This document shows, piece after piece, positions 3,890 to 59,090 of a stretch of 64,000 nt of DNA. Every line of letters begins with the position of its first letter. Position 1 is the stretch's first letter. The stretch lies in NCBI RefSeq assembly GCF_002251855.1, contig NZ_NOXW01000020.1:744001-808000 (forward strand). The letters run 5' to 3'. The translations under genes were made by a program, and so were the position numbers. The notes under the pieces were generated by a model. It was not told where the DNA came from. It made no database searches and saw only the letters and a program-made list of their open reading frames with translations. The DNA is from Rhodoferax sp. TH121 (GTDB taxonomy: Bacteria; Pseudomonadota; Gammaproteobacteria; Burkholderiales; Burkholderiaceae_C).

Positions 3890-3918
3890 TGTCGGTTTCC
3901 CTCTTCATTCAGCGCCAA

Positions 3919-3939: not shown

Positions 3940-4103
3940 TAACCAGTGAGCCAGCCGGTCAATTTGCACGGCATTGGCAAATATGAAAACCAATCTGGGC
4001 AAATAAATACCATTCAGTTCATATGGATACTTTGCGGTATGTATATTCCGTTTGCGCCACATTTTTGGCGAGGTTGATTGATCTAACCATCATGGAGATA
4101 TCG

Positions 4104-4559: not shown

Positions 4560-4580
4560 ACGCCAGACGTTTTGCCCGCC

Positions 4581-4617
4581 GCCCAGGACTGCGTTGCACT
4601 CCTGGGCTTTTTGGTTT
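4581..4617 (+). terminator. Rho-independent terminator after the fasciclin gene
   Basis: GCCCAGGA at 4581-4588 pairs with TCCTGGGC at 4600-4607 across an 11-base loop and is followed immediately by a T-rich run. It lies 22 bases after the fasciclin stop and separates that gene from the chalcone-isomerase-like gene. Confidence 0.85.
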
Positions 4618-4644
4618 TAAAACAGGGCCCAGCCCACCCCCGCC

Positions 4645-5253: not shown

Positions 5254-5271
5254 ATCGCCCGGGCGGATTCC

Positions 5272-6839: not shown

Positions 6840-6995
6840 ATGAAAAACGACAACCAAGATTTCAAGGGCAACAAGCAGTCCCTGCCCAGCAAGCCGTGCG
6901 CCGTGTGCGGCCGCACCATGACCTGGCGCAAGGCCTGGGCCAAGAACTGGGAGTCAGTGCGTTATTGCTCCGACGCCTGCCGGAGCAAGAAATGA
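6840..6995 (+). CDS. DUF2256 small zinc-ribbon-like protein
   Basis: A 51-residue protein with four cysteines arranged as PCAVCG near residues 19-24 and YCSDAC near 42-47, a zinc-ribbon pattern, and the family signature [19 protein letters not shown]2256 genes typically sit directly before cryptochrome/photolyase genes; here the stop codon overlaps the phrB start (ATGA). The tight coupling suggests a helper role for PhrB, such as cluster or DNA handling, which is inference. Its high Lys/Arg content would suit nucleic-acid binding. Confidence 0.88.
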
Positions 6996-8701
6996 GCGCG
7001 TCCGCCCCAGGCCACTCGATCCCCATGCCCACCAAGGTTCGACATCTCGTCATCGTCCTGGGCGATCAGCTCGACGCGGAGTCGTCGGCATTCGATGGCT
7101 TTGATGCCACGCATGACGTGGTGTGGATGGCCGAGGTGGCGGAAGAGTCCACGCACGTCTGGTCGGCCAAGCAACGCACGGCGGTGTTCTTGAGCGCCAT
7201 GCGCCACTTTGCCGCAGACCTGCGTGAGCGCGGCTTGCCCGTGCACTACACCGCGCTAGACGATGCCCGCAACCCCGGCACACTGGCCGCCGCGCTACAG
7301 CAGGCTATTGCCGCCTTTCAACCCACGGGCCTGGTGCTGACCGCGCCGGGCGATTGGCGCGTGTTGCACAGCCTGCGCGCGGTGGCTAGCCAGAATTCGC
7401 GGCCGCTGGATCTGCGCGACGACACACATTTCTTCAGCACCGTGCGCGAGTTCGCTGCCCACGCCCAAGGCCGCAAGCAACTGCGGTTGGAGTACTGGTA
7501 CCGCGAACTGCGGCAAAAGCACGGCATCTTGATGGAGGGCAGGGCGCCCATCGGCGGGCAGTGGAGCTTTGACGCCGACAACCGCGAATCCTTTGGCAAA
7601 GCCGGCCCAAAGAACGTGCCACCGCCTACGCGCTTTGCGCCAGACGCCATCACGCAAGAGGTCATCCATTTCGTTAGCACCCGCTTTGCCAGCCACCCCG
7701 GCACGCTGCACAGCTTTGGCTGGCCGGTAACGCGCGCGCAGGCGCTGCAGGCCTTGCAGGCTTTCATCACCGAGCGGCTGCCGCTGTTTGGCCAGTATGA
7801 AGACGCCATGTGGGCGGGCGAGGCCTGGCTCTACCACTCGCACCTGAGCTGCGCGCTCAACCTCAAGCTGCTGAACCCGCGCGAAGTGGTGCAGGCGGCA
7901 GAGGCGGCCTACCACGCGGGGCGTGCGCCCATCGCAGCGGTGGAAGGCTTTGTCCGGCAGATATTGGGCTGGCGCGAATATGTGCGCGGCATCTATTGGA
8001 CGCAGATGCCCCGCTACCTGGAGCACAACGCGCTGGACGCGCAGGCCGAATTGCCCGCCTGGTACTGGACGGGCGATACCGACATGGCCTGCCTCAAAGA
8101 CGCCATTGGCCAAACCCTGGAGCACGGCTACGCCCACCACATCCAACGCCTGATGGTGACCGGGCTGTATGCGTTGCTGCTGGGTGTGCGGCCGCAAGCC
8201 GTGCACACCTGGTACTTGGCGGTATACGTGGACGCGGTGGAGTGGGTGGAGCTACCGAACACGCTGGGCATGAGCCAGTTTGGCGACGGCGGGCTGATGA
8301 CCAGCAAGCCCTATGTGGCCAGTGGCAAGTACATCCAGCGCATGAGCAACCACTGCCAAGGCTGCCGCTTTGACCCGGCCCAATCCACCGGCTCCCAGGC
8401 CTGCCCCTTCACCACCCTGTATTGGGACTTTTTGATTCGCCACGAAGCCCTGCTCAAGCCCAACGCCCGCATGGCCATGCAGCTCAAAAACCTGGCCCGG
8501 CTGGACGCGCCCGCGCGCGACGCCATCCAGCAGCAGGCCGCCCAGCACCGGCTGGGGCAGGGTGTTTTAGTGCCAAATTGGCCTCTAGCCCAGGTAGATA
8601 CTGCGCAAGCAGCTATCAATAACGTAGCGTTTTGGGCGGGGCTGGCTGCTGTCAGGCCTCGCCCGTCGCCAGCTCAAAGCCTTCGTCCAGCCAGCCGGTG
8701 A
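6992..8701 (+). CDS. phrB: FeS-containing bacterial cryptochrome/(6-4) photolyase PhrB
   Basis: A 569-residue member of the FeS-BCP family (DUF523-free, PhrB type). It opens [13 protein letters not shown]. The C-terminal half has [21 protein letters not shown] and [10 protein letters not shown] with a further Cys in SQACPFTT, giving the four cysteines expected to ligate a 4Fe-4S cluster. Characterised homologues repair (6-4) photoproducts with FAD and a ribolumazine chromophore. The start at 6992 overlaps the DUF2256 stop; ATG 7025 is an alternative. The C-terminus is odd: the family normally ends near residue 525, but here an intergenic repeat (8571-8633) is read through, adding a tail and making the gene overlap the convergent rhodanese gene by 50 bases. 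Confidence 0.92.
8571..8633 (+). repeat. Dispersed 3'-end repeat, copy A
   Basis: Shares with the other copies GCCAAATTGGC, CTCTAGCCC, GTAGATACTGCGCAAGCAGCTAT and a closing GTAGCG; the longest shared run is given here in two parts: GTAGATACTGCG and CAAGCAGCTAT. CTGC-GCAA-GCAG forms a GNRA-capped stem. It lies inside the last codons of phrB, in the same orientation as that gene. Confidence 0.85.
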
Positions 8702-9129: not shown

Positions 9130-10131
9130 ATGACAAAAAACACGCCAAACCTGCAATCCGCGCCAACGGCACCTTCGCCCACCACCGGCCCGCTGGTGGT
9201 GGCGCCTGTATACGACGGGCTTTGTACCTTTGAGTTTTCCATCGTGGCCGAAATCTTTGGCTTGCACCGGCCCGAGATGGGCCCGGGCTGGTACCGCTTT
9301 GCCAGCGCCGCCATCGAGCCCGGCCCGCTGCGCGCCCACGGCGGCCTGCGCGTGAGCTGCGATGGCGATGCCAGCCTGCTGGAGCAGGCCGACCTCATCG
9401 TCATGGCGGGGTGGAAGGGTGCGCAAGTGCCCGTACCGGACGGACTCAGCCAGCGCTTGCGCGTCGCCTGGCAGCGCGGAGCGCGGCTCGCGTCCATCTG
9501 CTCCGGTGCCTTTGTGCTGGCGGCCACCGGCCTGCTGGACGGCAAACGCGCCGCCACCCACTGGCGCTACGCCAAGGCGCTGCAGGCGCGCCACCCCAGC
9601 GTGGAGGTAGACGCCAGCGTGCTCTATGCGGAGGGCGACCGGGTCTACACGTCTGCTGGCAGCGCCGCGGGCATGGATTTGATGCTGCACATCGTGCGCA
9701 GCGACTTTGGGGTGGATGCCGCCAACAGCGTGGCCCGCCGCCTCGTCATGCCACCGCACCGCAGCGGCGGCCAAGCCCAGTTCATCGAACGCCCCGTGCC
9801 GCAAGACGGCGACCAGCGCCTGGTGCAACTGCTGGAGCAGGTGCGCACCGACCTGCAAGCGCCATGGACGGTAGACCAGATGGCCAGCCGCGTGGCCATG
9901 AGCCCGCGTACCTTTTTGCGCCGCTTTGTGGAGCTCACCGGTCAGTCCCCCGGGCAATGGGTGGTGGCCGAACGTGTGGAACACGCCAAGCGCCTGCTCG
10001 AAGGCAGCGCGCTATCGGTGGAACGCATTGCTACCGAGGTGGGGCTAGGCAGCTTGCAGGCGCTGCGGCACCACTTTCAGCAGCAACTAGGGCTGTCGCC
10101 GCGAGAATACCGGGGGATGTTTGGAAGGTAA
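9130..10131 (+). CDS. ftrA: GlxA/FtrA-type AraC-family transcriptional regulator
   Basis: A 333-residue regulator with an N-terminal DJ-1/PfpI-like glutamine-amidotransferase-fold sensor domain (VVAPVYDGLCTFEFSIVAEI, and LASICSGAFVLAATGLL carrying the Cys elbow). The C-terminal AraC double helix-turn-helix includes MASRVAMSPRTFLRRF and IATEVGLGSLQALRHHF. The ATG at 9130 is chosen over an upstream TTG. It is divergent from the rhodanese gene, the likely regulated partner. The stop codon TAA coincides with the first bases of repeat copy B. Confidence 0.9.
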   Translation: MTKNTPNLQSAPTAPSPTTGPLVVAPVYDGLCTFEFSIVAEIFGLHRPEMGPGWYRFASAAIEPGPLRAHGGLRVSCDGDASLLEQADLIVMAGWKGAQVPVPDGLSQRLRVAWQRGARLASICSGAFVLAATGLLDGKRAATHWRYAKALQARHPSVEVDASVLYAEGDRVYTSAGSAAGMDLMLHIVRSDFGVDAANSVARRLVMPPHRSGGQAQFIERPVPQDGDQRLVQLLEQVRTDLQAPWTVDQMASRVAMSPRTFLRRFVELTGQSPGQWVVAERVEHAKRLLEGSALSVERIATEVGLGSLQALRHHFQQQLGLSPREYRGMFGR

Positions 10132-10184
10132 ATTGGCAGATAAGCCCTGTGCTTATTGCGCGAGCAGCTATGAAATAGATAGCG
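10130..10184 (+). repeat. Dispersed 3'-end repeat, copy B
   Basis: Begins at the ftrA stop codon: AAATTGGC, then TTATTGCGCGAGCAGC and a perfect GCTAT/ATAGC hairpin. The loop is GCGA, again a GNRA sequence. It is most similar to copy C at 14252, sharing GCGCGA and AGCTATGAAATA. Confidence 0.8.
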
Positions 10185-10201
10185 CACGAGTTCGTGTAGA
10201 G

Positions 10202-13930: not shown

Positions 13931-14415
13931 GGGGGTCACATTGCCAGGGTGATGGGTTGTAGTCTTCGTTGGTTTGAAGATGGGCGCAATCGACTTGGAA
14001 CCGATCCCCCCATGGCAGCCAAGACCTTTAAAGCGCGCTGTCCGCGCAAGCAGCAAGAACTCGAATGACGATAACAAATGAAGTCAGGCAAGAGTCCTGG
14101 GGTCTCGTTGGAGATCGAACTTGTTCGATAAAAGGGGACGGCACGCATAACCCCGAAGATACCTGACCGGTACTTGGGTGCATGTACTGGCGATGGGATA
14201 ACACTGTTTCCACCATGTAGGGACCGCCGCTCGCATAGCGCGAATTTATATGCCAAATTGGCCTATAGCGATTATGAATATTGCGCGAACAGCTATGAAA
14301 TACATAGCGTTTCCAATGTCGCCTGGCTGCGCATTCCTAATTGTCTTCCCCTTGCGCATAATGCATCTGCCAGCGAACGTACACAAGTTTTTCCACCCAA
14401 CCCTAGGAGATTCCC
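13931..14415. other. 485-base intergenic region
   Basis: Separates the divergent PAS-LuxR and VOC genes. It contains repeat copy C at 14252-14311 and presumably both promoters. The remainder (13931-14250) shows no convincing gene; the minus-strand frame running through it lacks an ATG and any family signature. Confidence 0.6.
14252..14311 (+). repeat. Dispersed repeat, copy C
   Basis: GCCAAATTGGC, then ATTGCGCGAACAGC and a perfect GCTAT/ATAGC hairpin. It is the only intergenic copy not at the 3' end of a neighbouring gene. It forms a direct repeat with copy B across the A/T-rich segment. Confidence 0.8.
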
Positions 14416-20733: not shown

Positions 20734-20752
20734 GGTGAATCACCTATGTCAG

Positions 20753-20804
20753 GATATTGCTACAAAATCAGGAGCTGCTTGCGCAGTATCTACAGGAATT
20801 TCGA
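20753..20804 (-). repeat. Dispersed 3'-end repeat, copy D
   Basis: On the minus strand: TAGATACTGCGCAAGCAGC followed by a GCTC...GTAGC stem. It begins at the base after the stop of the DMT transporter gene and runs in its direction. CTGC-GCAA-GCAG is intact. Confidence 0.85.
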
Positions 20805-21722
20805 CTACTTTTCTTGTGTAACCCACCAGATGCCAACGCTGACCAGCAGCAGTGCCACAAGGTACTTCCACTCCAGCAGGGACTCGCCCAGAAACAGCGC
20901 CGACAGGCAGGCGCCAAACACGGGAATCAGAAAGTTGTAGACCGCTACGGTGCTGACCCGGTTGTATTTGAGCAGCACGCCCCACAGGGCAAACGCGACG
21001 GCCGATAGCAGTGCCATGTAGACCAGCAGCAGGCTGGGCGCGAGCGTGAACGCTGCAATGTGGCCGCCTGCGACCCAGCCAATCAGCACCAGCACCACGC
21101 CGCCGATGCCAAGCTGGTAGCCGGTCATGACGACCGAGTCCATGCCCTGGGAGATGCGCTTGCCGTACAGGGACGCGGAGGACAGCACCAACGCGGCCAG
21201 CACGATGAAGCCTTCCCCAAGCAGCGTGAATTCACCCTCGGTAGCCGCGCCGCCCAGCAGTCCGCCGATGTTTACCGCCAGCACCCCGGCAAAGCCCAAC
21301 GCGCACCCCAGCAGCTTGCGCCAGGTGAGGGTGTCGTTGTGGTACACAAAATGCGCCAGAAGCACGCTGAAGAACACGCCAGATGCATTGAGGATGGATC
21401 CTTTGACTCCCGTGGTGTGAGCCAGGCCGATGTAGAAAAAGATGTACTGCAGCGTGGTCTGCAAGACCCCCAGCAGTGCGACCTGGCCGGTCTGTGCGCG
21501 CGGCAGCAAGAGCGCTTTGCCAGACAGTTTTGCAAATACCAGCAGCAAGAGCCCGGCGCCGACAAAGCGGTAGCCGGCAAATAGCATTTGTTCGGCAAGG
21601 TCACCGCGGCCGATCTCTAGCAGTGCGTAACCTTGCTTGATGGCGGGGTAGGCACTACCCCAGAGCAGACAGCACAGGCCTGCGAGAACAAAAACGGTGC
21701 GTGGACGGGTAAAAAAAGACAC
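20805..21722 (-). CDS. DMT-superfamily (EamA) transporter
   Basis: A 305-residue inner-membrane protein with about ten hydrophobic helices and two EamA repeats. The first opens FVLAGLCCLLWGSAYPAIKQ and the second includes GFIVLAALVLSSASLYGKR and FLIPVFGACLSALFLGESL. Family members export amino acids or other metabolites; the substrate is unknown. It lies just downstream of the acyltransferase gene on the same strand, 25 bases apart. Confidence 0.9.
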   Translation of the reverse strand: MSFFTRPRTVFVLAGLCCLLWGSAYPAIKQGYALLEIGRGDLAEQMLFAGYRFVGAGLLLLVFAKLSGKALLLPRAQTGQVALLGVLQTTLQYIFFYIGLAHTTGVKGSILNASGVFFSVLLAHFVYHNDTLTWRKLLGCALGFAGVLAVNIGGLLGGAATEGEFTLLGEGFIVLAALVLSSASLYGKRISQGMDSVVMTGYQLGIGGVVLVLIGWVAGGHIAAFTLAPSLLLVYMALLSAVAFALWGVLLKYNRVSTVAVYNFLIPVFGACLSALFLGESLLEWKYLVALLLVSVGIWWVTQEK

Positions 21723-29290: not shown

Positions 29291-31669
29291 ATGAACGCCC
29301 CAGTCGACGTCTCTTTTTTCGCGCGCGCTGCCAAGCCGCTGTCCAGCTACCGCAAGTACTGGGCCGCTCGTTTTGGCACGGCCCCAGTGCTACCCATGAG
29401 CCGTGCGGAGATGGACAAGCTGGGCTGGGACAGCTGCGATATTGTTTTGGTCACGGGTGACGCCTATGTGGACCACCCCAGTTTTGGCATGGCAGTGATT
29501 GGTCGCATGCTCGAAGCGCAAGGGTTCCGGGTCGGCATCATCGCCCAGCCCGATTGGACCAGTGCTGAGGCCTTCAAGGTGCTGGGCAAGCCCAATCTTT
29601 TCTGGGGCGTGACCGCGGGCAACATGGATTCCATGATCAACCGCTATACCGCGGACCGCAAAATTCGTAGTGACGACGCCTACACGCCAGGCGACGTGGG
29701 CGGTAAACGCCCCGACCGTGCCGCCATCGTCTACAGCCAACGCTGCCGCGAAGCCTTCAAAGACACCCCCATCATCTTGGGCGGCATTGAAGGTTCCTTG
29801 CGCCGCATCGCCCACTACGATTACTGGAGCGACAAGGTGCGCCGTAGCATTGTGGTGGATGCCAAGTGCGATCTGTTGCTGTACGGCAATGCTGAGCGCG
29901 CGATTGTCGAAATCGCCCACCGGCTTGCTGCTAAGGAGCCGGTGGAGCAGATCACCGACGTGCGCGGTACCGCCTTCTTCCGCCGCGAAACGCCGGAAGG
30001 CTGGTTCGAGATCACCTCCACCACGGTGGACGAGCCGGGTCGCGTGGAAGCCCACATCAACCCCTACATGACGACCTCGGAGCAGGCAAGCGCCAATGGC
30101 GCCACCTGTTCCAAGGAAGACGAAGCCCAGCGGGTGGCAGAAAAAGCTACAAAAGAAGGAGCTGTTCGCGCAGTATCCATGCGGGCTGAAGGCATAAAAC
30201 CCTTGAATTTTGTACCCAACCCCGCGTTGCATGGCCTGGGCAAGTACAAGGTGCCGCCGCGCGAACGCTCGGTCATTCGCCTGCCCAGCTACGAGCAGGT
30301 CAAGAGCGACCCCATCCTCTACGCCCACGCCAACCGCGTGCTGCACATGGAGACCAATCCCGGCAATGCCCGTGCCTTGGTGCAGGCACACGGGGAGGGC
30401 GCAACGGCGCGCGACGTCTGGATCAACCCACCGCCCATCCCGTTGACCACGGCCGAGATGGACATGGTGTTTGACCTGCCCTACGCCCGCAGCCCGCACC
30501 CCAGCTACGCTGACGAAAACGGCAGCCACGACGGTGCGACCAAAATCCCGGCCTGGGAAATGATCCGTTTCAGTGTGAACATCATGCGTGGCTGCTTCGG
30601 CGGCTGCACCTTCTGCTCCATCACCGAGCACGAAGGTCGCATCATCCAGAGCCGATCGGAAGAGTCCATCATCAAAGAGGTCGAAGACATCCGCGACAAG
30701 GTCAAGGGCTTTACCGGCACCATTTCCGACTTGGGCGGCCCCACAGCCAATATGTACCGCCTGGGCTGCCGCAGCCCCGAGATCGAGGCGGCTTGTCGCA
30801 AACCGAGCTGCGTCTATCCCGGCATCTGCCAGAACCTGACCACCAACCACGACCCGCTGATCAAAATTTACCGCCGTGCGCGCGCGCTCAAGGGCATCAA
30901 GAAAATCCTGATAGGTTCTGGCCTGCGCTATGACTTGGCCGTGAAGAGCCCGGAGTATGTGAAAGAACTGGTGCAGCACCACGTGGGCGGCTATCTCAAG
31001 ATCGCGCCTGAGCACACCGAGCAGGGCCCGCTGACCAAGATGATGAAGCCGGGCATCGGCAGCTATGACAAGTTCAAGCAGTTGTTCGAGAAGTTCAGTG
31101 CCGAGGCGGGCAAGAAGCAGTTCCTGATTCCGTACTTCATTGCCGCCCACCCCGGCACCACGGATGAAGACATGATGAACTTGGCCATCTGGCTCAAGAA
31201 AAATGGCTTTCGCGCGGACCAGGTACAGACCTTCTACCCCAGCCCCATGGCCACGGCCACGGCCATGTACCACTCAGGCCGCAACACCCTCAAGCGCGTG
31301 CACCGTACCGCGCAGAGTGAGGACGAGACTGTGGACATCGTGCGGGGTGAAAAACGCCGTCGCCTGCACAAGGCGTTTCTGCGCTACCACGACCCCAATA
31401 ACTGGCCGGTGTTGCGCGAAGCGCTGAAGGCGATGGGGCGGGCAGATCTGATCGGCAATGGCAAGCACCACCTGATCCCTACCTTCCAGCCGCTGACCGA
31501 TGGCGGCTACCAAAGTGCCCGCAAGAAAAACTCGACCGCGGCGCCAGCCAAGGCGTCGACGCCTGTAAAACCCGTCAAAGGCCGCATGCTCACCCAGCAC
31601 ACTGGTTTGCCCCCGCGCGTGACCGGTTCGGCCAAGCCCAGTGCCAAACTGAACCGCAAGCCGCGCTGA
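29291..31669 (+). CDS. ygiQ: YgiQ-family radical SAM protein
   Basis: A 792-residue radical SAM enzyme of unknown substrate. The N-terminal YgiQ domain begins near [20 protein letters not shown], and the radical SAM CX3CX2C cluster motif is [17 protein letters not shown] at about residue 440. YgiQ of E. coli is about 740 residues. Part of the surplus here is a segment at about residues 283-305 ([16 protein letters not shown]) that is encoded by an in-frame copy of the dispersed repeat (30143-30193). The disordered Lys/Ala/Pro-rich C-terminal tail accounts for the rest. The ATG at 29291 is preferred; upstream in-frame codons lack homology. It is convergent with yiaA. Confidence 0.93.
30143..30193 (-). 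repeat. Dispersed repeat, copy E, inside ygiQ
   Basis: GCTACAAAAG, GGAGCTG and GCGCAGTATC match copy D almost base for base. In repeat orientation it is antisense to ygiQ. The reading frame stays open through it. Confidence 0.82.
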
Positions 31670-40436: not shown

Positions 40437-41906
40437 ATGCGCATCCTGCAAGCCAGTGCCGAGATATTCCCCCTGCTCAAAACCGGCGGGTTGGCCGACA
40501 TTGCGGGGGCGCTGCCGGCTGCCCTGCAAGAGGCCGGCTGCGATGTGCGGGTGATGCTGCCGGGTTTTCCCGCCATCAGCGCCGGGCTCGAGGGCGCGAT
40601 GCCTGTGGCTAGCTTCGCCATGCCCTGGGGCGAGCGCGTGGAGGTGGTCTACGGAACCCTGCCTGCGCTGGCCCGTGGCGCTCAAACCTTGGGCGCCTAC
40701 GTGCTCATGGCGCCTGGCTTGTATGACCGACCCGGCAACCCCTATGAGGACGCCAATAAGCGCGCCTATGCCGACAACCACCGCCGCTTTGCCGCGCTAG
40801 GCCTGGCCGCTGCCCATGTCGCGCACGGGCTGGACGCACACTGGCGCCCCCAGTTGGTGCACAGCCACGACTGGCATGCCGCGCTGGCGCCGGCCTGTCT
40901 GGCCCTGTGGAACGAGGGGCAGGGCCCGCGTGTGCCTTCGGTCTACACCGTGCACAACCTGGCCTACCAAGGCGTGTTTGGTCCCGAGCTGTTTGGCGAT
41001 CTGGGCTTGCCGGGCCGCGCCTTCCATGTGCATGGCATGGAATTCCACGGCAATCTGTCCTTCATGAAGGCAGGCCTGTTCTATGCGGACCACATCACCA
41101 CCGTGAGCCCCACCTATGCCCAGGAAATCCAGGGGCCGGAACAGGGATGCGGACTCGATGGCCTGCTGCGTGCGCGCCAGCAGCAGCTCAGCGGCATCCT
41201 CAATGCGGTGGACGACTCCGTCTGGAGCCCCAGCTCCGACGCCTTGATCAAGCACTCCTTCGATATACGCCACATGGCGGGCAAGGCGCAAAACAAGGCC
41301 TTGCTGCAAGCTGAAATGGGCTTGGCGGTGGAGCCCGATGCCCCACTGTTTGCGGTGGTGAGCCGACTGACCGACCAGAAAGGCCTGCCCTTGGTGCTGG
41401 CCGCGGTGGACGAGATCGTGTCCCGCGGTGGCCAGTTGCTGGTGCTGGGCAGTGGCGAAACTTGGCTGGAGCAGGCCTTTGTGGCGCAAGCGCGTGACCA
41501 TGTTGGCCGTGTGGCCGTGAAGCTGGGCTATGACGAGGCCTTTGCCCACCGCATCTTTGCGGGCAGTGACGTGACGCTGGTGCCGTCGCGCTTTGAGCCT
41601 TGCGGCCTGACCCAGATGTATGGCCTCAAGTACGGCAGCTTGCCGCTGGTGCGCCGCGTAGGCGGCTTGGCCGACACGGTGGTCGACAGCGACCTCGAAA
41701 CCCTGGAAGACAAGACCGCCACTGGCTTTGTCTTCGACGCCTTTGACGAAACCCACTACCGACGCGCGGTACGCCGGGCCTTTGCGCTCTACCACCGCAA
41801 GGCCGAATGGAACCGCGTGCGCCATACGGGCATGAAGCTTGCCTTCGATTGGACTACCGCCGCCGGGCACTACACCGCGCTTTACCAAAAGCTCATTCAC
41901 CTATGA
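40437..41906 (+). CDS. glgA: Glycogen synthase (ADP-glucose type)
   Basis: A 489-residue GT5 glycosyltransferase. The N-terminal [16 protein letters not shown] contains the KxGGL ADP-glucose motif, [11 protein letters not shown] is typical, and the C-terminal [20 protein letters not shown] holds the catalytic E-X7-E region. It extends alpha-1,4 chains using ADP-glucose. ATG 40437 begins the conserved [13 protein letters not shown], so the upstream TTG is not used. The stop overlaps the glgP start (ATGA). Confidence 0.96.
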
Positions 41907-44383
41907 CAACGATCTCTACCCCGACCGTGCAAACCCCCGTGAACTTTGAATTTGACGCGCCCGGCCGCGACCTCGAATCCCTGAAACGTTCCATCGCCAA
42001 CAAACTCATGTTCGTGGTGGGCAAAGACCCGGAAGCCGCCCGCCCCGAAGACTGGCTGCATGCGGCGGCCTACGCTGTACGTGACCAGCTGGTCGAGCGC
42101 TGGATGACCACCACCCGCGCCCAGTACGCCCAGGACGCCAAGCGCGTGTACTACCTCAGCATGGAGTTTTTGATCGGCCGCACATTCAGCAATGCCATGC
42201 TGGCCGTGGGCCTGCGCGAGCGGGTCAAACAAGCCTTGGCGGATTTTGGTGTGGACATCGACGCGGTCACCGAGCTGGAACCCGACGCTGCTTTGGGCAA
42301 CGGTGGATTGGGCCGACTGGCAGCGTGCTTTCTGGATTCCATGGCCACGCTCAACATTCCCGGTTTTGGCTACGGCATCCGCTATGACTACGGCATGTTC
42401 AAGCAAACCATTGTGGACGGCCGGCAGGTTGAAGTGCCCGACTACTGGCTCACCCACGGCAACCCTTGGGAGTTTCCGCGCCCTGAGGTGACCTACCGCG
42501 TGCAGTTTGGCGGCCATGTGATCAAAGAGGGTGAGGTCTACAAGTGGGTGGACAGCCACGATGTGCAGGCCATGGCCTATGACACCATCATTCCCGGCTA
42601 CGCCACCAAGGCCACCAACACCTTGCGCCTGTGGTCTGCCAAGGCCACGCAAGAGATTGACTTGGGCGCCTTCAACCGCGGCAACTACATGGCGGCGGTG
42701 GAGACCAAAAATCACTCCGAGAACGTCTCTCGCGTGCTCTACCCGGACGACTCCACGCCCTCGGGCCGCGAGCTGCGCTTGCACCAGGAATACTTCTTCT
42801 GCAGCGCCAGCGTGCAAGACTTGCTGCGGCGGTATCTGCGCACGCACAACAACTTTGAGAACCTGCCCAACAAGGTCAGCATCCACCTCAATGACACGCA
42901 CCCGGTGTTGGCCATTCCTGAACTCATGCGCTTGTTGCTGGACGAGCACCACCTGCCTTGGGCCGACGCCTGGCGCCTGTGCCAAGGCGTGTTCAGCTAC
43001 ACCAACCACACCCTCATGCACGAGGCGCTGGAGACCTGGCCGGTGGAGATGATGGGCCGCATCCTGCCTCGCCACCTGCAGATCATTTACGACATCAACG
43101 CCCAGTTTTTGCACCAGATTTCGCTGCGCGGCGGCAGCCCCGAGCTGTTGCGCAAGGTCAGCTTGGTGGACGAGGCGGGCGAGCGCCGCGTGCGCATGGC
43201 CTACCTGGCTGTCATCACCAGCCACTCGGTCAATGGCGTGTCGGCCTTGCACTCCGAGCTGATGAAGGAAAGCATCTTCTTTGACTTTGCCAAGCTCTGG
43301 CCCGAGCGCTTCAACAACAAAACCAACGGCATCACCCCGCGCCGCTGGCTGGCGCAGGCCAACCCCGCCTTGTCGGCCGTGCTGGACAAGCAGGTCGGCA
43401 CTGGCTGGCGCCGTGACCTGACCCAGCTCAGCGGCCTGAACGCGGTGCTGACGCAACCCAAAGTCATCGAGGCCTTCCAGGGCGCCAAGCTCGCCAACAA
43501 GCAGCGTCTCGCCGCCTGGGTGCAGGCCAATATGGGCCTGACCGTCCCCACCGATGCGCTCTACGACGTGCAAGTCAAGCGCATTCACGAATACAAGCGC
43601 CAGCTGCTCAATGTGCTGCATGTCATCACCCGCTACCTGCGCATCATCCACAACCCCGGCGCGGTGACGGTGCCTCGCGTGGTAGTGTTTGCGGGCAAGG
43701 CCGCATCGGCCTACCACATGGCCAAGCAGATCATTCACCTGATCAACAGCGTGGCCAAGGTGGTGAACAACGACCCGCGCGTGGGTAACCTGCTCAAGGT
43801 GGTGTTCATCCCCAACTACAGCGTGAGCCTTGCCGAACGCATCATCCCGGCGGCTGATTTGTCGGAGCAAATCTCCACCGCGGGCACGGAGGCATCAGGC
43901 ACCGGCAATATGAAGTTCGCCCTGAACGGTGCGCTCACCATCGGCACGCTGGACGGGGCCAACGTCGAAATCCTGGAGAACGTGGGTGCCGACAACATCT
44001 TTATCTTCGGCCTGACCACGCCGCAAGTGGCCGCAACCCGCGCCGCGGGCTACCAGCCACGCGCGATTGCCGAGGGCAACGCCGAGCTGACGGCGGTGCT
44101 CGAAGCCATCCGCGATGGCGTCTTCAGCCCCGATGAGCCCGGCCGCTTCCAGGCCATCTATGATCTGCTGGTGAACTGGGGCGACCACTACCTGCTGCTG
44201 GCCGACTATGCGGCCTACATTGCCGCACAAGAGCAGGTGGATGTGGCTTACCAAAACAAGGAAGCCTGGACCATCAAAGCCCTGCGCAACGTGGCTGCTA
44301 TGGGCCCGTTCTCTGCGGACCGTACGATTGGCGAATACGCAGACAAGATCTGGAAAAGCAAGCCGCTCGAACTGGCGAGCTAG
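41903..44383 (+). CDS. glgP: Glycogen/starch alpha-glucan phosphorylase
   Basis: An 826-residue GT35 phosphorylase. The pyridoxal-phosphate Lys lies in [17 protein letters not shown]; other signatures are [18 protein letters not shown] and [13 protein letters not shown]. It releases glucose-1-phosphate from glycogen ends. It overlaps glgA by four bases, so synthase and phosphorylase are co-translated, with turnover controlled by allostery rather than by separate transcription. Repeat copy F follows 12 bases after the stop. Confidence 0.96.
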
Positions 44384-44394: not shown

Positions 44395-44466
44395 GGCCAA
44401 TTTCACAAGAAGTTGGCCTCTCGCCCCCGTGGATACTGCGCAAGCAGCTATCAATTAGATAGTGCT
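44395..44466 (+). repeat. Dispersed 3'-end repeat, copy F (most complete)
   Basis: GGCCAA and TTGGCC arms enclose a 12-base loop (hairpin 1), then GGATACTGCGCAAGCAGC with the CTGC-GCAA-GCAG stem (hairpin 2), then GCTAT...ATAGT (hairpin 3). It starts 12 bases after glgP and has the same orientation. Confidence 0.88.
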
Positions 44467-44747
44467 CAGGCGTTTCGCCAGAGTATGTAGCTGCCTAGCA
44501 GCGCAATGTTTCCCACGACGGACAGCCAGAAAACCATCTGAAAACTCCGCTTCGCTGTCTTGTGCCGCAGCACCCGCTGGGCCAGCCACGCGGCAGGCCA
44601 GCCACCCAACAGGCTGAGCAAGTGCAAGGTGTTTTCCGGGGTGCGCCACTGGCCGGTGCGGGCAGCGTATTTGTCGCGCGCGTAGAGCGCGAAGGTGAGC
44701 AGATTAAGGGTGGCCCAGGCGGCAAGCCACAGGGCCACGGCGGACAC
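44466..44747 (-). CDS. DUF1294 membrane protein
   Basis: A 93-residue protein with three hydrophobic segments and the DUF1294 signature: YARDKYAARTGQWRTPENTL, LLSLLGGWPAAWLAQRVLRH and KTAKRSFQMVFWL. Function unknown; longer relatives carry a cold-shock domain, absent here. It begins with GTG immediately after the yebC stop codon, so it is probably expressed from the yebC transcript. Confidence 0.85.
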   Translation of the reverse strand: MSAVALWLAAWATLNLLTFALYARDKYAARTGQWRTPENTLHLLSLLGGWPAAWLAQRVLRHKTAKRSFQMVFWLSVVGNIALLGSYILWRNA

Positions 44748-46600: not shown

Positions 46601-47524
46601 CTAGTTCATCGTGTACAGGGGGATGTCCTTGGCCGTGGCCAGGGCGTCCAGTTGTTGGCGGGTTTTGCCGGCCAGGTAGGCGGCGATGGCCGTGTGCGTC
46701 TCGGGGGCGAACATGGCCAGAATGTGCGATTGTCGCAGACCCACTTCGGCCGCCAGCGCCGCGGCAAAGTGCGGCTCCAGCGCGGCCAGCGCCACACGGC
46801 CGTCTTGGCAGGGGTAGACCCGGTAGCCCGCATGGCCGCCACCCACCGCGGCGCCGGGGGCTGTCAGGCCCCAGGTGCGCGGCAGCGCCAGGTAGCCCGC
46901 CGCCGCCGACAGCGCTACCTCTTGAACCACGCCCTTGCCCTTTTGCAGCTGCAGAAGCCGTGCCTGCAGCACGGCTTCTGAGGCCATGAGCGAGCCCGCC
47001 ATGTCCGCATACAGCGTGGGCGGCAGGTCCAGGCCGGTGACCAAATCGTTTTCGGCCAGGTAGGTCAGGTCGTGGCCGGGCTCCTCAGCGCGGGCGCCGG
47101 GGGCGCCCACGATGGCTACCAGGCTGAGCTGGGGGTACTGCTTGTGTAGCGCTTTCCACTCCAGCCCCAGCTTCTTCAGGGCCGAGGGGCGAAACGATGT
47201 GAGCAGCACATCGGTCTTGGCCAGTGCCCGGTGCAGGGCCTTTTGGCCGGCTTCGGTTTTGAGGTCGGCGTGGCTGACCTTCATGCCTGCGTGCATCACG
47301 TCGTAGGCGGCGCGGTTGTACAGGCCCATGGGGTCGCCACTCGTGCCCTTGGGGGCGCTGGGGTGGGGCGGCGGCTCCAGCTTGGTGCAGCTCGCGCCCA
47401 TGTCGCGGCAGCGCATCAGGGCGGCGGGCCCCGGCAGGTTCAGCGCCAGGCTGAGGATGCGCACGCCCTTGAGCGGGCGCAGGGCGGACGTTTTGGTGGC
47501 GGCGATGGGGGGCTTGGTGTTCAT
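46601..47524 (-). CDS. CaiB/BaiF-type CoA-transferase family protein
   Basis: A 307-residue family III CoA-transferase or 2-methylacyl-CoA racemase homologue: LKGVRILSLALNLPGPAALM, GHDLTYLAENDLVTG (with the catalytic-type Asp) and CQDGRVALAALEPHF. Family members usually have 360-400 residues, so this is short, mainly in the C-terminal region. The racemase/transferase subtype is uncertain. Repeat copy G lies just upstream of its start. Confidence 0.82.
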   Translation of the reverse strand: MNTKPPIAATKTSALRPLKGVRILSLALNLPGPAALMRCRDMGASCTKLEPPPHPSAPKGTSGDPMGLYNRAAYDVMHAGMKVSHADLKTEAGQKALHRALAKTDVLLTSFRPSALKKLGLEWKALHKQYPQLSLVAIVGAPGARAEEPGHDLTYLAENDLVTGLDLPPTLYADMAGSLMASEAVLQARLLQLQKGKGVVQEVALSAAAGYLALPRTWGLTAPGAAVGGGHAGYRVYPCQDGRVALAALEPHFAAALAAEVGLRQSHILAMFAPETHTAIAAYLAGKTRQQLDALATAKDIPLYTMN

Positions 47525-47528
47525 GAAT

Positions 47529-47590
47529 TTGCTATCAAAATAGAAGCTGCTTGCGCAGGGGGTGCGGGCTTTGGAGGCTATTTTGATACC
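47529..47590 (-). repeat. Dispersed 3'-end repeat, copy G
   Basis: Minus-strand CTGCGCAAGCAGC core, flanked by an extra long inverted repeat: TATCAAAATAG (47533-47543) and CTATTTTGATA (47578-47588). It begins 6 bases after the flavodoxin stop, in its orientation. Confidence 0.8.
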
Positions 47591-47596
47591 AAAACG

Positions 47597-48055
47597 CTAG
47601 CCCGCTGTCGCCAGTTGGACTGCCCAGGCTTTGAGCCAGGCCACGGCATCGTCTTCGGGCTGGCTGGTTTCCATGGCGTCCAGCCCGCAGATCTCGCCCA
47701 CGCGCTGGGCGCCCAGGTCACGCAGGCGCTCGTCAAACTGCTTGCCGCCGCCCAGGTAGCTATCACCATAGCTGCTGTCACCCAGCGCCACCAGGCCGTA
47801 GCGCACATGGCCCAGGTACTTGGCCTGCGCGTCCAGCGAATGGAACAGCGCCTGTGCGTTGTCGGGCACATCGCCCACGCCGGTGGTGCTAGTGCAAATG
47901 ATAAAGGTGCCGGGCTGGTCGAACACGGTGATGTCCAGCCCGTCCATGGGCAGCACGTCGATAGTGGCGCCTATGTCGTCGGCGCAGAACTGCAGGGCTT
48001 GGGCGACGCTGCTGGCATTGCCATGCATGGTGCCCACGAGGATGGTGATCTGCAT
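47597..48055 (-). CDS. Flavodoxin (MioC-like)
   Basis: A 152-residue flavodoxin-fold FMN protein. The phosphate loop GTMHGNAS at about residues 8-15 and the two flavin loops STTGVGDVPDN and LGDSSYGDSYLGGG are present. MioC-like flavodoxins donate electrons to enzymes such as biotin synthase; the partner here is unknown. A weak purine-rich ribosome site precedes the ATG. It is divergent from the exonuclease gene. Confidence 0.9.
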   Translation of the reverse strand: MQITILVGTMHGNASSVAQALQFCADDIGATIDVLPMDGLDITVFDQPGTFIICTSTTGVGDVPDNAQALFHSLDAQAKYLGHVRYGLVALGDSSYGDSYLGGGKQFDERLRDLGAQRVGEICGLDAMETSQPEDDAVAWLKAWAVQLATAG

Positions 48056-50711: not shown

Positions 50712-50723
50712 TGGTGTCTTAGT

Positions 50724-50790
50724 GAAAGTCGGCTCTAGCCCTTGTGGAATATGCGCGAACAGCTATTGAATAAATAGCAAATTGGTGCCA
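50724..50790 (+). repeat. Dispersed 3'-end repeat, copy H
   Basis: CTCTAGCCC, then ATGCGCGAACAGC and a perfect GCTAT/ATAGC hairpin. It lies 12 bases after the EamA stop, same orientation. The GNRA stem is weakened (C opposite A) as in copy C. Confidence 0.8.
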
Positions 50791-51587: not shown

Positions 51588-52684
51588 ACGAAGCGCCCAT
51601 GCCCGGCCGGCAGGGTGCGTCTATGCGCCTGCGCATGACCGCAGCTGCCAGCGCCCTGGCTTTGCTAGCGGCGCTGGGCGGTGCCATGCTGGCCGGAGCT
51701 TTGCCGCATACCGAGGCCGCTTCTTGGTGGCTCGCGCTGCTGGCGGGCGTGGGTCTGCTGCTGGCGCTGGCCTGGTGGCTGGCCGGGCGCAGCCTGGCGC
51801 CGGTGCACCGATTGGCTGCGACCGTCGCCGCGCGCCGCCCCCATGAGACGGCCTTGCTGGAGCGCGCACCGGCGCCCGAGCTGGAGGCCTTGGTGCGCGG
51901 GCTCAACAGCCAGTGGCAGCAACAACAGACGGCGCTGGACCAGCAGCAGCGCTTCATTGCCGAAGCCTCGCACCAGCTGCGTACGCCGCTTGCCGTGCTC
52001 AAGACCCAGCTGCAGGGCACGATCGCTGGCGAGCTGCAGACGGCCGAGACCCTGCCCAAGATGTTGCGCACCGTGGACCGCGCCTCGCACCTGGCCAACC
52101 AGCTGCTCTCCAAGGCCAAGGTGGACCAGAAGCTGCAGAACGCGCAATGGGCCGATGTGGATCTGCAACAGATTGCCAGCGAGGTACTGGTGGAGTGCGC
52201 ACCGCTGGTGGCACGCAAGCGCCTGGACGTGTCGCTGGAAGCGCTGCCGGTGCGCCTGCACACCGACGGCTGGTTGGTCGGTGAGCTGCTGCGCAACCTG
52301 GTGGCCAACGCGATTCACCAGAGTGCCCCGGGGAGCAGCCTGGGCGTGGTGATCCGCTACCTGCCCACCGAGGTGGAGCTGCTGGTGTGGGACAACGCGG
52401 GCGGCATTGACGAAGGCGTGCGCGAGCGCCTGTTCATGCCCTTTGAGTCCGCCAGCGGCGGCACAGGCGTGGGCCTGGGCTTGTCGATCTGCAAGCAGAT
52501 TGCAGTGTCCATGCAGGCCAGCCTGGACCTCTACAACCGCATGCAACACGGTGTGGTGGTGGGCGTGGATGCCGTGGTGCGCTGGCCCTTGCCCGAGGGG
52601 CAGGCACCGGGCGCGGCGCCGTCACCAATGGCAGCCGTGCATTCACAGCCGCTCTCGCACGCCGCGCTGCGGGTGCCCGCATGA
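51584..52684 (+). CDS. Sensor histidine kinase with minimal periplasmic loop
   Basis: A 366-residue kinase. Two transmembrane helices (about 18-40 and 48-68) are joined by only about seven periplasmic residues (PHTEAAS). A short HAMP-like linker precedes the H-box SHQLRTPLAVLK (His at about 130). The catalytic domain has the N-box NLVANAIHQSAPG, DNAGGIDEG and GTGVGLGLSI. A basic Ala/Pro-rich tail follows. With no room for a periplasmic sensor domain, it may respond to membrane partners, perhaps the co-transcribed transporter. It overlaps the regulator before it and the ATPase after it (ATGA both). Confidence 0.92.
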   Translation: MNEAPMPGRQGASMRLRMTAAASALALLAALGGAMLAGALPHTEAASWWLALLAGVGLLLALAWWLAGRSLAPVHRLAATVAARRPHETALLERAPAPELEALVRGLNSQWQQQQTALDQQQRFIAEASHQLRTPLAVLKTQLQGTIAGELQTAETLPKMLRTVDRASHLANQLLSKAKVDQKLQNAQWADVDLQQIASEVLVECAPLVARKRLDVSLEALPVRLHTDGWLVGELLRNLVANAIHQSAPGSSLGVVIRYLPTEVELLVWDNAGGIDEGVRERLFMPFESASGGTGVGLGLSICKQIAVSMQASLDLYNRMQHGVVVGVDAVVRWPLPEGQAPGAAPSPMAAVHSQPLSHAALRVPA

Positions 52685-53772
52685 GCCAGGGGCTGCACTT
52701 GCTGGGCATTGAAAAAACCTATGCCAATGGTTACCGCGCGCTGCGCGGCGTGCACCTGCGTGTGCCCGAGCGTCGGCTGACTACCTTGCTGGGGCCGTCG
52801 GGTTGCGGCAAGAGCACCTTGCTGCGCCTGATTGCCGGGCTGGAGCGGCCTGATGCCGGCCAGATCGTGTTTCGCGGCGAAGACTTGACCCATTGCCCGG
52901 CCGACCAGCGCGATATGAGCCTGGTGTTCCAGAGTTATGCCTTGTTTCCCTATTTGTCGGTGCAAGACAACGTGCGCTACGGCCTCAAGGCACAAGGCCT
53001 GTCTGCCGCCGCGCAGGCGGAGCGGGCGGCGCAGGCCCTCGCGCTGGTGGGCTTGGGCGGGTTCGAAGACCGTATGCCGCACGAACTGTCAGGCGGTCAG
53101 CAGCAGCGCACCGCGCTGGCGCGTGCACTGGCCCTGCAGCCCGCACTGGTGTTGCTGGACGAGCCGCTGTCCAACCTGGATGCCAACCTGCGCCGCCATA
53201 TCCGCGAAGACATTCGCCAGCTGCAGCAGCGGCTTGGGCTCACGGTGCTCTACGTCACCCACGACCATGCGGAGGCCATGTCGGTCAGCGACCAGGTGGT
53301 GGTGATGCAGGAGGGCCGGGTGGTGCAGATTGGCTCGCCGCGCGAGATTTACGAGCAACCCCAGACCGAGTTTGTGGCTGGCTTCATGGGCGACTCTGCG
53401 GTGTTTGAAGCGCACTGCGATGGCGCAGGCCAGATTCGCCTGGGGCCGCTCACGCTGGACCTAGGGGTACCACTGCGGCAGGGCGCGGTGCGCCTGATCG
53501 TGCGCCCGCAGGCCTGGTGCATGGCCCCGGCAGGCGCGCAAGGCCTGGCGGGCAAGGTGGAGCGCAGTGCGTACCTGGGCCGCAGCACCGAGACCTGGGT
53601 GCTCACCGCCCTGGGCAGCCTGTTGGTCATTTCCGATCAACAGGCTGCCTGCCACGCGGTGGGCGCGCCGGTCAGTCTTTTTCTTTCCCGCAAAGGGGTG
53701 AGCGTGCTCTTGCCCCAAACCCTTTCGACCCCCCAGACCATCCCGGTCTTTCAATCCAGGAGACATCCATGA
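52681..53772 (+). CDS. ABC transporter ATPase 1 (AfuC/FbpC-like)
   Basis: A 363-residue ATP-binding subunit of the iron/phosphosugar/spermidine importer class. Walker A GPSGCGKSTLLRLIAGLE, signature LSGGQQQRTALARAL and Walker B LVLLDEPLSNLD, with a C-terminal TOBE-type regulatory domain from about residue 240. It is translationally coupled to the kinase before it and to the binding-protein gene after it (ATGA both). A paralogous ATPase closes the operon. Confidence 0.92.
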   Translation: MSQGLHLLGIEKTYANGYRALRGVHLRVPERRLTTLLGPSGCGKSTLLRLIAGLERPDAGQIVFRGEDLTHCPADQRDMSLVFQSYALFPYLSVQDNVRYGLKAQGLSAAAQAERAAQALALVGLGGFEDRMPHELSGGQQQRTALARALALQPALVLLDEPLSNLDANLRRHIREDIRQLQQRLGLTVLYVTHDHAEAMSVSDQVVVMQEGRVVQIGSPREIYEQPQTEFVAGFMGDSAVFEAHCDGAGQIRLGPLTLDLGVPLRQGAVRLIVRPQAWCMAPAGAQGLAGKVERSAYLGRSTETWVLTALGSLLVISDQQAACHAVGAPVSLFLSRKGVSVLLPQTLSTPQTIPVFQSRRHP

Positions 53773-57093: not shown

Positions 57094-58158
57094 ATGACAC
57101 ATACAAACACAGGCACGAATACAGGTATTTCTTTCCGCCAGGTCGTCAAACGTTACGGCGGTGCCGATAGTCCGTTGGTCGTGCGCGGCATCGACTTTGA
57201 TGTGCCCAAGGGCACGCTGACCACCATTCTGGGCCCCTCCGGTTGCGGCAAGACCACCACGCTGCGCATGATTGCGGGCCTGGAGACGCCCAGCGGCGGG
57301 CAAATCTTCATCGATGGGCGCGACGTGACCCAGTTGGGGCCAGCCGAGCGCAATGTGAGCATGGTGTTCCAGAGTTATGCGCTGTTCCCGCACATGACGG
57401 TCCTGGGCAATGTGGCTTATGGCCTCAACGTGAGTGGCGTGCCCAAGGCGGAGGTAAGTGACCGTGCCCGCGCGGCCATGGCCATCGTGGGCCTGGCTGG
57501 CTATGAGGCGCGTTATCCGGCCGAATTGTCGGGCGGGCAGCAACAACGGGTGGCACTGGCGCGTGCCCTGGTGCTGGAGCCTTCGGTCCTGCTGTTCGAC
57601 GAGCCACTGTCCAACCTGGACGCACGCTTGCGCCGCTCCATGCGCGAAGAAATTCGCGGCCTGCAGCAGCGCCTCAAGCTCACGGTGGCCTATGTCACGC
57701 ACGACCAAAGCGAGGCGCTGGCGGTGAGCGACCAGATCATCGTGATGGACGGCGGCCTGATCGTGCAGGCCGGTAGTCCGCGCGAGCTGTATGAGAACCC
57801 CAAGACGGAGTTCGTGGCCGGTTTCATGGGCGAGGCCGTGCTGCTGGATGGGGTCTGCGAGTCGGAGGGCGCAGTACGCCTGGGCCCGCTCACCCTGCGC
57901 ACACCGCAGCGCGTGGCCACCGGCCCGGTCAAAGTGGCGATCCGTCCCGAGGCCTGGGCGGTACATGATGGCCACGGGCACGGGCTGCTGGGCACGGTGT
58001 CCAAAGCGGCCTACCTGGGCAGCTTCCAGGAGCTGACGGTGGATACCAGTCTGGGCGAGATTTTTGTGGTGTCGTCGGACGCGCAGGGTAGCTGGAGCAG
58101 TGGCGACGCGGTGACCTTGCAGCTGTCTGAGCGCGGGGTGTCGGTGGTGGCGGTCTAG
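57094..58158 (+). CDS. ABC transporter ATPase 2 (AfuC/FbpC-like)
   Basis: A 354-residue paralogue of the ATPase at 52681. Walker A GPSGCGKTTTLRMIAGLE, signature [15 protein letters not shown], Walker B VLLFDEPLSNLD, and the same C-terminal TOBE-like region. It begins MTHTNTGTNTG, similar to the permease start. Two complete ATPases with one fused permease is more than a usual importer needs; they could form a heterodimer or serve alternative permeases. Confidence 0.92.
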   Translation: MTHTNTGTNTGISFRQVVKRYGGADSPLVVRGIDFDVPKGTLTTILGPSGCGKTTTLRMIAGLETPSGGQIFIDGRDVTQLGPAERNVSMVFQSYALFPHMTVLGNVAYGLNVSGVPKAEVSDRARAAMAIVGLAGYEARYPAELSGGQQQRVALARALVLEPSVLLFDEPLSNLDARLRRSMREEIRGLQQRLKLTVAYVTHDQSEALAVSDQIIVMDGGLIVQAGSPRELYENPKTEFVAGFMGEAVLLDGVCESEGAVRLGPLTLRTPQRVATGPVKVAIRPEAWAVHDGHGHGLLGTVSKAAYLGSFQELTVDTSLGEIFVVSSDAQGSWSSGDAVTLQLSERGVSVVAV

Positions 58159-58167: not shown

Positions 58168-58240
58168 AGGCCATTTTTTGAAAGAAATTGGCCTTTAGGC
58201 TACGTAGATACTGCGCGAGTAGCTACTGAATGTATAGCAA
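58168..58240 (+). repeat. Dispersed 3'-end repeat, copy I
   Basis: AGGCCA...TTGGCCT (hairpin 1), then AGATACTGCGCGAGTAGC in which CTGC-GCGA-GTAG keeps the stem through a G-U pair and a GNRA loop. It lies 10 bases after the ATPase 2 stop, same orientation. Confidence 0.86.
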
Positions 58241-58241
58241 G

Positions 58242-59090
58242 TCAGGCCGCTTCGCGTGCCATGCCTTGTGTCAGTGACAGGGTGTGGGCGGCTTCGCGCA
58301 GGTAGTTTCGTACATCGGTCATTTGCGGACCCACGTGCCGGTCGATACGGCGGATGTAGGGGCAGGTGAGGGTGGCCAGTGCGGTGTTGTCCGGCCCGAG
58401 GATGGGGAATGAAATGTCGATCACCCCCAGCGTTTGCGCACTGTCGCGCTCCAGGTAGCCGCGCTCGCGGATGCTGGCCAGCGTGGCTTGTAGCTCGGCT
58501 TCGGTAATGGGTACTTCGCCATCCAGTGGCGTGTGTTCGGCCAGCATGCGGCGATAGCTGCCCTCGTCGGCATAGGCCAGCAGCAGGTGGCCCGAGGCAG
58601 TGTCCAGCAGGCCCACGCGCGCACCGCGTTGCACCGCAAAGCTCCAGCCACTGGGGCTGTTGATCTGGGCGCTGATGAGCACGTTGCCGCGGTCGTAGAC
58701 CCCCATGTGGCAGGACTGTTCTGCCTTGCGGGCAAAGTCGTCCATCACCGGCAGGGCCTGGTTGATCAGGCGGCTCAGCGGCGGGTGCATATTGGCCAGC
58801 GCAAACAACTTGAGGCTGAGCGCATAGCGGTCACCAGACGCGTTGCGCATCACGTACTGCCGCGCCACGAGACGCTCCAGCATGCGGTAGATCTCACTAG
58901 CGCTGCGGTCCATCTCTTTCACGATTTCGGCGCGTGTCAGGCCGTGTGGCTGCGTCGCCAGCAACTCCAGAATGTCCAGCCCCTTGTCCAGCGCTGGCGC
59001 GCGGTAGCGGTCTTCCGGGGGCAGGCTCGATTCGTCCTGGTCTTCGGTCTTGGCGGGGCGGCCGCGCGGCTTGGCGGGAGACGTGGTCAT
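58242..59090 (-). CDS. IclR-family transcriptional regulator
   Basis: A 282-residue IclR-type regulator. The N-terminal winged helix is ALDKGLDILELLATQPHGLT, then AEIVKEMDRSASEIYRMLER. The effector domain contains CHMGVYDRGNVLISAQINSP and LDTASGHLLLAYAD. A charged 25-residue N-terminal extension precedes it. It is divergent from the deoxysugar operon at 59239, with two tandem palindromes in the promoter between, and is the likely repressor or activator of that operon. Its stop is just beyond repeat copy I, which belongs to the other strand. Confidence 0.92.
   Translation of the reverse strand: MTTSPAKPRGRPAKTEDQDESSLPPEDRYRAPALDKGLDILELLATQPHGLTRAEIVKEMDRSASEIYRMLERLVARQYVMRNASGDRYALSLKLFALANMHPPLSRLINQALPVMDDFARKAEQSCHMGVYDRGNVLISAQINSPSGWSFAVQRGARVGLLDTASGHLLLAYADEGSYRRMLAEHTPLDGEVPITEAELQATLASIRERGYLERDSAQTLGVIDISFPILGPDNTALATLTCPYIRRIDRHVGPQMTDVRNYLREAAHTLSLTQGMAREAA

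Follow-up and report, generated by a model that had tools for sequence, protein, structure and literature searches.

Rhodoferax sp. TH121 and related Comamonadaceae carry a genome-wide DNA word that is spelled in dialects. The phenomenon itself is well supported and its mechanism moderately so. The word is likely read as DNA. Tentatively, and by analogy with known systems, we interpret it as an uptake tag by which self DNA is recognised in natural transformation. With the same reserve we propose that Comamonadaceae chromosomes may hold an unrecognised third self-DNA signal system, whose putative reader would have re-spelled the sites in place, codons and amino acids included.

The window (the whole 64-kb stretch of DNA that was analysed) had been annotated with nine copies of a dispersed repeat, and all nine were found where that initial annotation had placed them. 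The core stands above chance: GATACTGCGCAAGCAGC with ≤3 mismatches gave 5 matches in the window vs 0.45 expected, and 0/100 shuffles reached 5. The nine copies score 41–63 bits with a profile HMM, and pairs of them are 63–84% alike over at least 34 nt. They are located as follows.

Copy A, 8563..8637, + strand: 3' end of a photolyase-related gene (6896-8701, PF04244), in frame; 63.2 bits.
Copy B, 10119..10190, + strand: overlaps the stop of an AraC-type gene (9130-10131); 43.8 bits.
Copy C, 14240..14314, + strand: gap between divergent genes, the sole such case among 53 sampled copies; 56.4 bits.
Copy D, 20752..20823, - strand: tandem gap between EamA and photolyase-type genes, overlapping the EamA stop; 41.1 bits.
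Copy E, 30141..30213, - strand: antisense in the variable linker of a YgiQ-type radical SAM gene (29291-31669, + strand; Pfam); 43.9 bits.
Copy F, 44395..44468, + strand: 3' of a carbohydrate-phosphorylase gene (41903-44383); 57.7 bits.
Copy G, 47523..47597, - strand: spacer between flavodoxin and CoA-transferase genes, filled by the copy; 49.0 bits.
Copy H, 50717..50787, + strand: 3' of an EamA gene; 55.9 bits.
Copy I, 58171..58247, + strand: between a convergent ABC transporter gene and IclR-type gene; 56.7 bits.

The family is not purely intergenic, since copy E lies within a gene (29291-31669), presumably ygiQ. In four other named loci (L052, L076, L079, L080) a copy of the word lies at about the same offset (≤30 nt) in this gene. 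At the copy F site an element is found at the same place in three close congeners with 96–97% identical protein, and none was found in nine more distant congener loci, indicating that sites are also gained or lost.

The existence of further copies outside the window was confirmed on a genome-wide scale. The pattern TGCGCRARYAGCT-N10-TAGC with ≤2 mismatches gave ∼574 matches (290 + 284 by strand) in the 3.99 Mb genome, while the reversed pattern, used as a control in the same genome, gave 11 (5 + 6). Several of the 2-mismatch matches in ORFs are probably due to chance. If each copy is ∼70 bp, the family occupies roughly 40 kb, or 1% of the 3.99 Mb chromosome. The two strands are used equally. 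Replication-strand bias was considered and dropped, given the full counts of 290:284 and sampled stretches that hold exact reverse copies. The profile HMM was built from 39 copies, including the nine of the window, and matches below 30 bits were excluded. In 464 kb it recognised 53 copies at or above this threshold. Nine of them are those of the window; the other 44 come from 400 kb of other contigs and lie outside the training set. Match scores range from 30 to 67 bits over a conserved length of ∼55–70 bp, and the best score in reversed sequence was 9.8 bits. The word has CAAATNGGCC on the left and AGCTAY-N6-7-RTAGC on the right, and these outer parts vary least between genera. The middle 20–25 bp constitute the dialect.

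The positions of the 53 HMM copies relative to genes were examined in the 464 kb using a simple codon-usage gene caller. Tandem gaps hold 14 copies on the strand of the genes and 10 on the opposite strand, convergent gaps hold 13, and divergent gaps hold one. The remaining 15/53 copies are inside ORFs, 10 antisense and 5 sense. A stop codon lies ≤31 nt from the edge of 33 of the 37 copies in tandem or convergent gaps (median 1 nt). Divergent gaps comprise 26% of the intergenic bases yet hold only 1/38 intergenic copies (P = 1e-4), a clear deficit; promoter gaps are avoided. Positive supercoils pile up at gene ends, and the main rival to the uptake reading, which we consider doubtful, is a chromosome-organising or supercoiling site at which a nucleoid protein, gyrase or something similar would bind the word at gene ends and co-evolve with it. 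Its placement near stop codons and in convergent gaps, the avoidance of promoter gaps and the use of either strand would fit such a site.

The initial annotation had read the family as a selected RNA or a structured mobile repeat and not as random intergenic sequence. A selected genome-wide family was borne out; an RNA with a GNRA-capped hairpin was not, in view of the lack of covariation, a fold of two pairs and the absence of an Rfam match. The letters of its three hairpins are as described, although hairpin 1 (GGCCAA/TTGGCC) is present in few copies. The middle loop does have GNRA letters; GCGA, assigned to two copies, occurs as well over the mismatched stem of copies C, E and H. Hairpins 2 and 3 did not behave as conserved pairs in 39 copies: 79.8% of the alignment cells were paired vs 80.6% with partners shuffled, and 495/500 shuffles had a covariation score at least as high. 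When partners were slid by 1–3 columns 8–53% were paired, which is what a consensus-derived structure would give, and 30 of the 39 alignment rows had been retrieved by a pattern in which both stems are partly fixed. RNAalifold gave a consensus of only two base pairs for 83 copies of the source genome on either strand. There was no Rfam match in the window at the gathering score and none at copy F at E values up to 10.

A structured RNA at mRNA 3' ends, perhaps read from the opposite strand, is on these grounds highly improbable. Some features do point that way. There is a central stem in some dialects, and on the strand of the initial annotation its A-C mismatches exceed G-T mismatches, 54 vs 24 (63/107 copies; P = 0.0005, uncorrected); on the other strand these would form wobble pairs. 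Folding z-scores average -0.58 and -0.51 on the two strands (standard error 0.15), slightly more stable than shuffled sequences, and in two congeners changed pairs preserve the left hairpin of copy F. However, sense and antisense placement is about equal, and there are antisense copies in the ygiQ-type gene, cobC and fabD. The nearly equal use of the two strands in tandem gaps also argues against an RNA function of the sense strand. In some other genera the centre of the word is a near-perfect inverted repeat. Hairpin potential is thus a property of some dialects and is not general.

The extra left hairpin of copy F (hairpin 1; window 44395-44430) reads GGCGGATT/AATCTGCC in two congeners and has one mismatch in a third. 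These changed pairs suggest a terminator-like hairpin at the end of the phosphorylase gene that uses the left part of the word.

Dialects were characterized in ten relatives with 80 kb sampled from each. Nine gave a profile, making ten with the source genome (G000); the tenth relative, G302, had too few matches. The centre is spelled CCTCGTGGATACTGCGCAA in the source genome, CGGCGTATTTATTGCCTAA in G329, CCCTACAGCCATCTGCGC in G438 and AGCGCTTG-N5-CAAGCGC in G309, G369 and G314, and G414 is intermediate between the last of these and the source-genome spelling. Dialect classes were defined by us once the profiles had been seen, without a tree, and one class is common to several genera (G309, G369, G314, G413, G303). 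Copies mostly preferred the profile of their own genome in a test that is partly circular, the profiles being drawn from the same stretches, and that left out the G303 and G418 profiles: 57/58 in G000, 20/20 in G329, 19/19 in G438, 16/16 in both G309 and G369, 13/14 in G414, 27/32 in G314 and only 4/9 in G413.

Orthologous sites follow the dialect of the genome in which they reside. Sites of at least 15 bits in genomes with a profile of their own (9/28 fabH-fabD, 6/15 cobS and 8/16 cobC) were assigned to a class, which was that of their own genome in 8/9, 5/6 and 7/8 cases, respectively, a total of 20/23; the other 3/23 mismatched. None of 2000 permutations, which ignore kinship, was as high: their summed scores averaged 498 and peaked at 651, compared with 749 for the real assignment. 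The stretches behind the G000 profile exclude L034 but include L045, which carries the cobS and cobC sites of G000, and a G414 stretch overlaps the cobC locus of that genome; concordance is 18/21 once the two G000 sites on which their own profile was trained are set aside. The loci left out of these counts are 2/30 fabD loci without a fabD start motif, 5/20 cobC loci without a usable cobS stretch, and 4/20 loci without a match to the motif searched at cobC (G437, G329, G368, G407).

The junction of fabD with fabH, the latter named from its C-terminal motif, carries an element of at least 15 bits in 15/28 genomes. In 14 of these 15 the element overlies the fabH stop and the spacer is 51–63 nt; in G329 it lies farther along a spacer of 122 nt. 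The other 13/28 junctions score below 15 bits, some of them in repeat-rich genomes (G438, G301). Among six repeat-poor genomes with a readable junction five have spacers of 13–44 nt, and the sixth, G340, has 59 nt and scores 2 bits. The difference in length between filled and repeat-poor spacers makes insertion possible at this junction.

Among the coding copies the evidence on insertion is clearest at cobC. The cobC copy scores 46 bits, and its protein stretch is free of gaps in 34 aligned homologues (34 of 120 listed), so transposition fails to explain the coding copies. CTA CAA AGA is found at the site in 15/16 genomes and GAT TTG, from the left part of the word, in 13/16; the element scored ∼15 bits or more in 13/16. 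Both AGA and CTA are rare: roughly counted over 811–1869 codons per genome, AGA makes up ≤9.6% of those for Arg and CTA ≤8.1% of those for Leu. The FabD copy scores 33 bits and is likewise free of gaps among 35 close homologues aligned (of 120 listed; one is the query's own protein). Several more distant genera have a FabD that is shorter by a few residues beside the repeat site, which leaves CobC as the clean case against insertion. At cobS the dialect is translated in frame, and the protein reads ALALVLAAQAAMVLVA in the source genome and ALALVYQALGALVLIA in G309. In following the dialect, orthologous sites use rare codons in cobC and altered amino acids in cobS. Insertion in the ygiQ-type gene was rejected as a test case, its linker being too variable to judge.

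Two observations were made at these loci. At the fabD site (L162-L189) genera alternate between a G+C-rich spelling and a repeat-like one rich in A+T, with similar protein. At L045 three copies lie within 5 kb (1559-6433) of a cobalamin gene cluster, comprising a gene taken as cobD-like, cobS and cobC, and all three are in reading frames.

Persistence at orthologous sites, a prevailing spelling in each genome and re-spelling in frame argue against plain transposition at those sites and point toward a trans-acting reader of DNA. The mobile repeat proposed initially finds no support in the coding copies, with no gap at cobC, or in the sites that persist in place across genera; intergenic copies may still have arisen by insertion.

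A REP/REPIN-like element, spread and maintained by a resident RAYT-like Y1 transposase, is for similar reasons unlikely. Y1_Tnp (PF01797) was matched in 28/30 repeat-rich genomes vs 84/120 others, and the fabH-fabD spacers of 51–63 nt in 14/15 filled and 13–44 nt in 5/6 repeat-poor genomes would agree with insertion. REPs also resemble the Rhodoferax family in high copy number, location at gene 3' ends, scarcity in promoter gaps and some intragenic copies (PMC3733652), and in the inverted-repeat centre of some dialects. On the other hand, the gap-free copy at cobC, with rare codons conserved across genera, and the changes of spelling in place are not what such elements would be expected to leave. 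The RAYT-like gene of the source genome is not flanked by copies; within 1.5 kb of this single Y1_Tnp gene there was only one pattern match, with 3 mismatches. G433 has 248 matches to the word without a Y1_Tnp match. We also saw no invariant hairpin flanked by a GTAG tag, which sets the word apart from the GTAG and CGTC families of REPs. G314 has 20 Y1_Tnp matches, many of them near-identical copies or split halves; an IS200-type expansion that has nothing to do with the word is the probable cause.

Concerted evolution of the dispersed copies by gene conversion, acting through the conserved outer parts and without any function, we regard as very unlikely. It could account for the prevailing spelling in each genome and for the nearly constant length of the centre, with which conversion would keep reading frames. 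But copies in the window that are 63–84% alike are rather dissimilar for frequent conversion, the conserved rare codons at cobC need a constraint, and avoidance of promoters would go unexplained.

The distribution of the word over genomes was determined by pattern counts. With the source-genome spelling and ≤1 mismatch, an order-wide sample of 300 genomes gave a clear excess over the control only within the source family, in 4/9 members drawn (G000, G093, G204, G294); with this spelling the other families of Burkholderiales in that sample did not rise above background. Within the source family 30/150 genomes were repeat-rich with up to 899 matches per genome, extending the family to other genomes of the Comamonadaceae. 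Rich was our own cut of at least 60 matches and at least 3 times the control, and a poor genome may hold a dialect missed by the pattern. Copies were also seen in 15/80 named loci fetched for the ygiQ-type gene, including Rhodoferax, Polaromonas, Variovorax, Simplicispira, Ottowia and Comamonas. A DNA-level search in six relatives gave no match. The FabD of the source genome is 97% identical to that of an uncultured Rhodoferax and 95% identical to one Rhodoferax saidenbachensis entry.

By queries with single copies, the repeat appears to be chromosome-bound. The copy F query matched 2 of 72,556 plasmid records, both from Comamonadaceae and over half of the query or less, the copy A query matched 0 of 50,697 phage records, and no copy was found in 50 kb of a Polaromonas naphthalenivorans plasmid. 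The conserved genes fabD, cobC and cobS and the ygiQ-type gene carry the word.

These data bear on the supercoiling site in both directions. The central inverted repeat of several dialects suggests a dimeric reader, and maintenance in place at orthologous sites would suit a chromosomal binding site. Against it, 120/150 genomes of the family are not rich in the source or a near dialect, so the word seems dispensable, matches per genome range from background to 899, and no candidate reader was found.

An uptake tag would accommodate the observations in the following way. A putative trans-acting DNA-binding factor, possibly part of the competence machinery, would read the centre of the word. As the specificity of this reader drifted, the sites would drift along by substitution, driven by the more frequent uptake and recombination of fragments that carry the right word. 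The length of 55–70 bp is long for a site that evolves by substitution and counts against the uptake reading, and a DNA-binding protein unrelated to uptake would fit nearly as well.

The competence gene comEC was identified in 30/30 repeat-rich genomes and 114/120 others (144/150 overall). Found in rich and poor genomes alike, its presence does not separate the two sets. One of the 16 genomes, G302, has common codons at the cobC site. Its comEC matches fall in three consecutive pieces in different frames (L234, 8740-9544), while neighbouring ORFs look open. Its density of 73 elements per Mb is the lowest, compared with 112–400 in five genomes of the same dialect class, yet it keeps a good fabH-fabD element of 34 bits. 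The link between a broken comEC and decay of sites is suggestive but not proof, as this is a single case that could be an assembly error.

The closest known behaviour, judged by analogy, is that of DUS with their dialects in the Neisseriaceae and USS in the Pasteurellaceae. DUS and USS reach a length of up to 12 bp. With 55–70 bp as opposed to 9–12 bp the Rhodoferax word is at least five times longer, and it differs further in its conserved outer parts and variable centre, in its strong preference for stop codons and in belonging to another bacterial family. DUS and USS raise uptake or transformation and are bound by a pilin receptor such as ComP; the Rhodoferax word is likened to them by its sequence pattern. 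DUS are recorded as 10-mers and USS with nine positions. DUS are described as present in thousands of copies, with dialects conserved within species and with intragenic as well as intergenic sites in permissive places (PMC3630211). In the account given there, likenesses to the Rhodoferax word include hundreds to thousands of chromosomal copies making up about 1% of the chromosome, permissive sites between and within genes (here 15/53 in ORFs), dialects that are constant within species and differ between genera, and, for DUS, use in gene-end hairpins (PMC3630211).

If the uptake reading is true, the Comamonadaceae would be a third case of uptake words, with long words and re-spelling in place across many genera. 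We know of no third bacterial family with uptake words. The system would make it possible to study how hundreds of sites evolve together with their reader and, from cobS, to what extent a DNA signal can set the sequence of a protein. Were the reader not for uptake, the word would reveal an extensive and unstudied system of chromosome addressing in a common family of bacteria. Pasteurellaceae and Neisseriaceae have uptake words (PMC7811141), and no paper on such words in the family studied here was found in the open-licence literature. Six core words of the source-genome spelling had no relevant match in open-licence full texts (one was an unrelated zebrafish text). When the family or its genera were searched together with repeats, RNA motifs or uptake words, the only relevant entries among the matches listed were the Polaromonas naphthalenivorans motif pair and BRE.

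The P. naphthalenivorans motif pair ATAGCT(N)22CAAAAG is a statistical motif from the same bacterial family, with 101/125 copies intergenic and often near genes (PMC5217627). Its reverse complement, CTTTTG(N)22AGCTAT, shares the spacing of CTNNAG(N)22AGCTA in the Rhodoferax word and was found nowhere in 400 kb of the source genome or 1.1 Mb of named loci. Judging from this spacing the motif pair may be a trace of the Rhodoferax word family. BRE is a dispersed repeat of ∼90 bp in Betaproteobacteria including Comamonadaceae, with copies in genes too, 69% G+C in Bordetella, tandem arrays and 1–29 copies per genome (PMC3110155). As described there, it differs from the Rhodoferax word in composition, copy number and host range, a distinction made on its published description; the Rhodoferax core is at background outside its own family. 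Rickettsia palindromic elements are also read in frame inside genes (PMC3733652), but these are insertions, whereas the cobC frame carries the word without an insertion.

Two further observations concern the window. The linker of the ygiQ-type gene (window 30141-30213; loci L061, L067, L070) is a hot spot for peptide-coding repeats; apart from the word, it encodes RPEPVEG and LPL(A)GEGRG(E/Q)G peptides in Polaromonas and Hydrogenophaga, apparently from further dispersed repeats. The genes at 52681-53772 and 57094-58158, the latter encoding an ABC transporter ATPase, form a similar pair 4.44 kb apart, with DNA 71–74% identical over several stretches.
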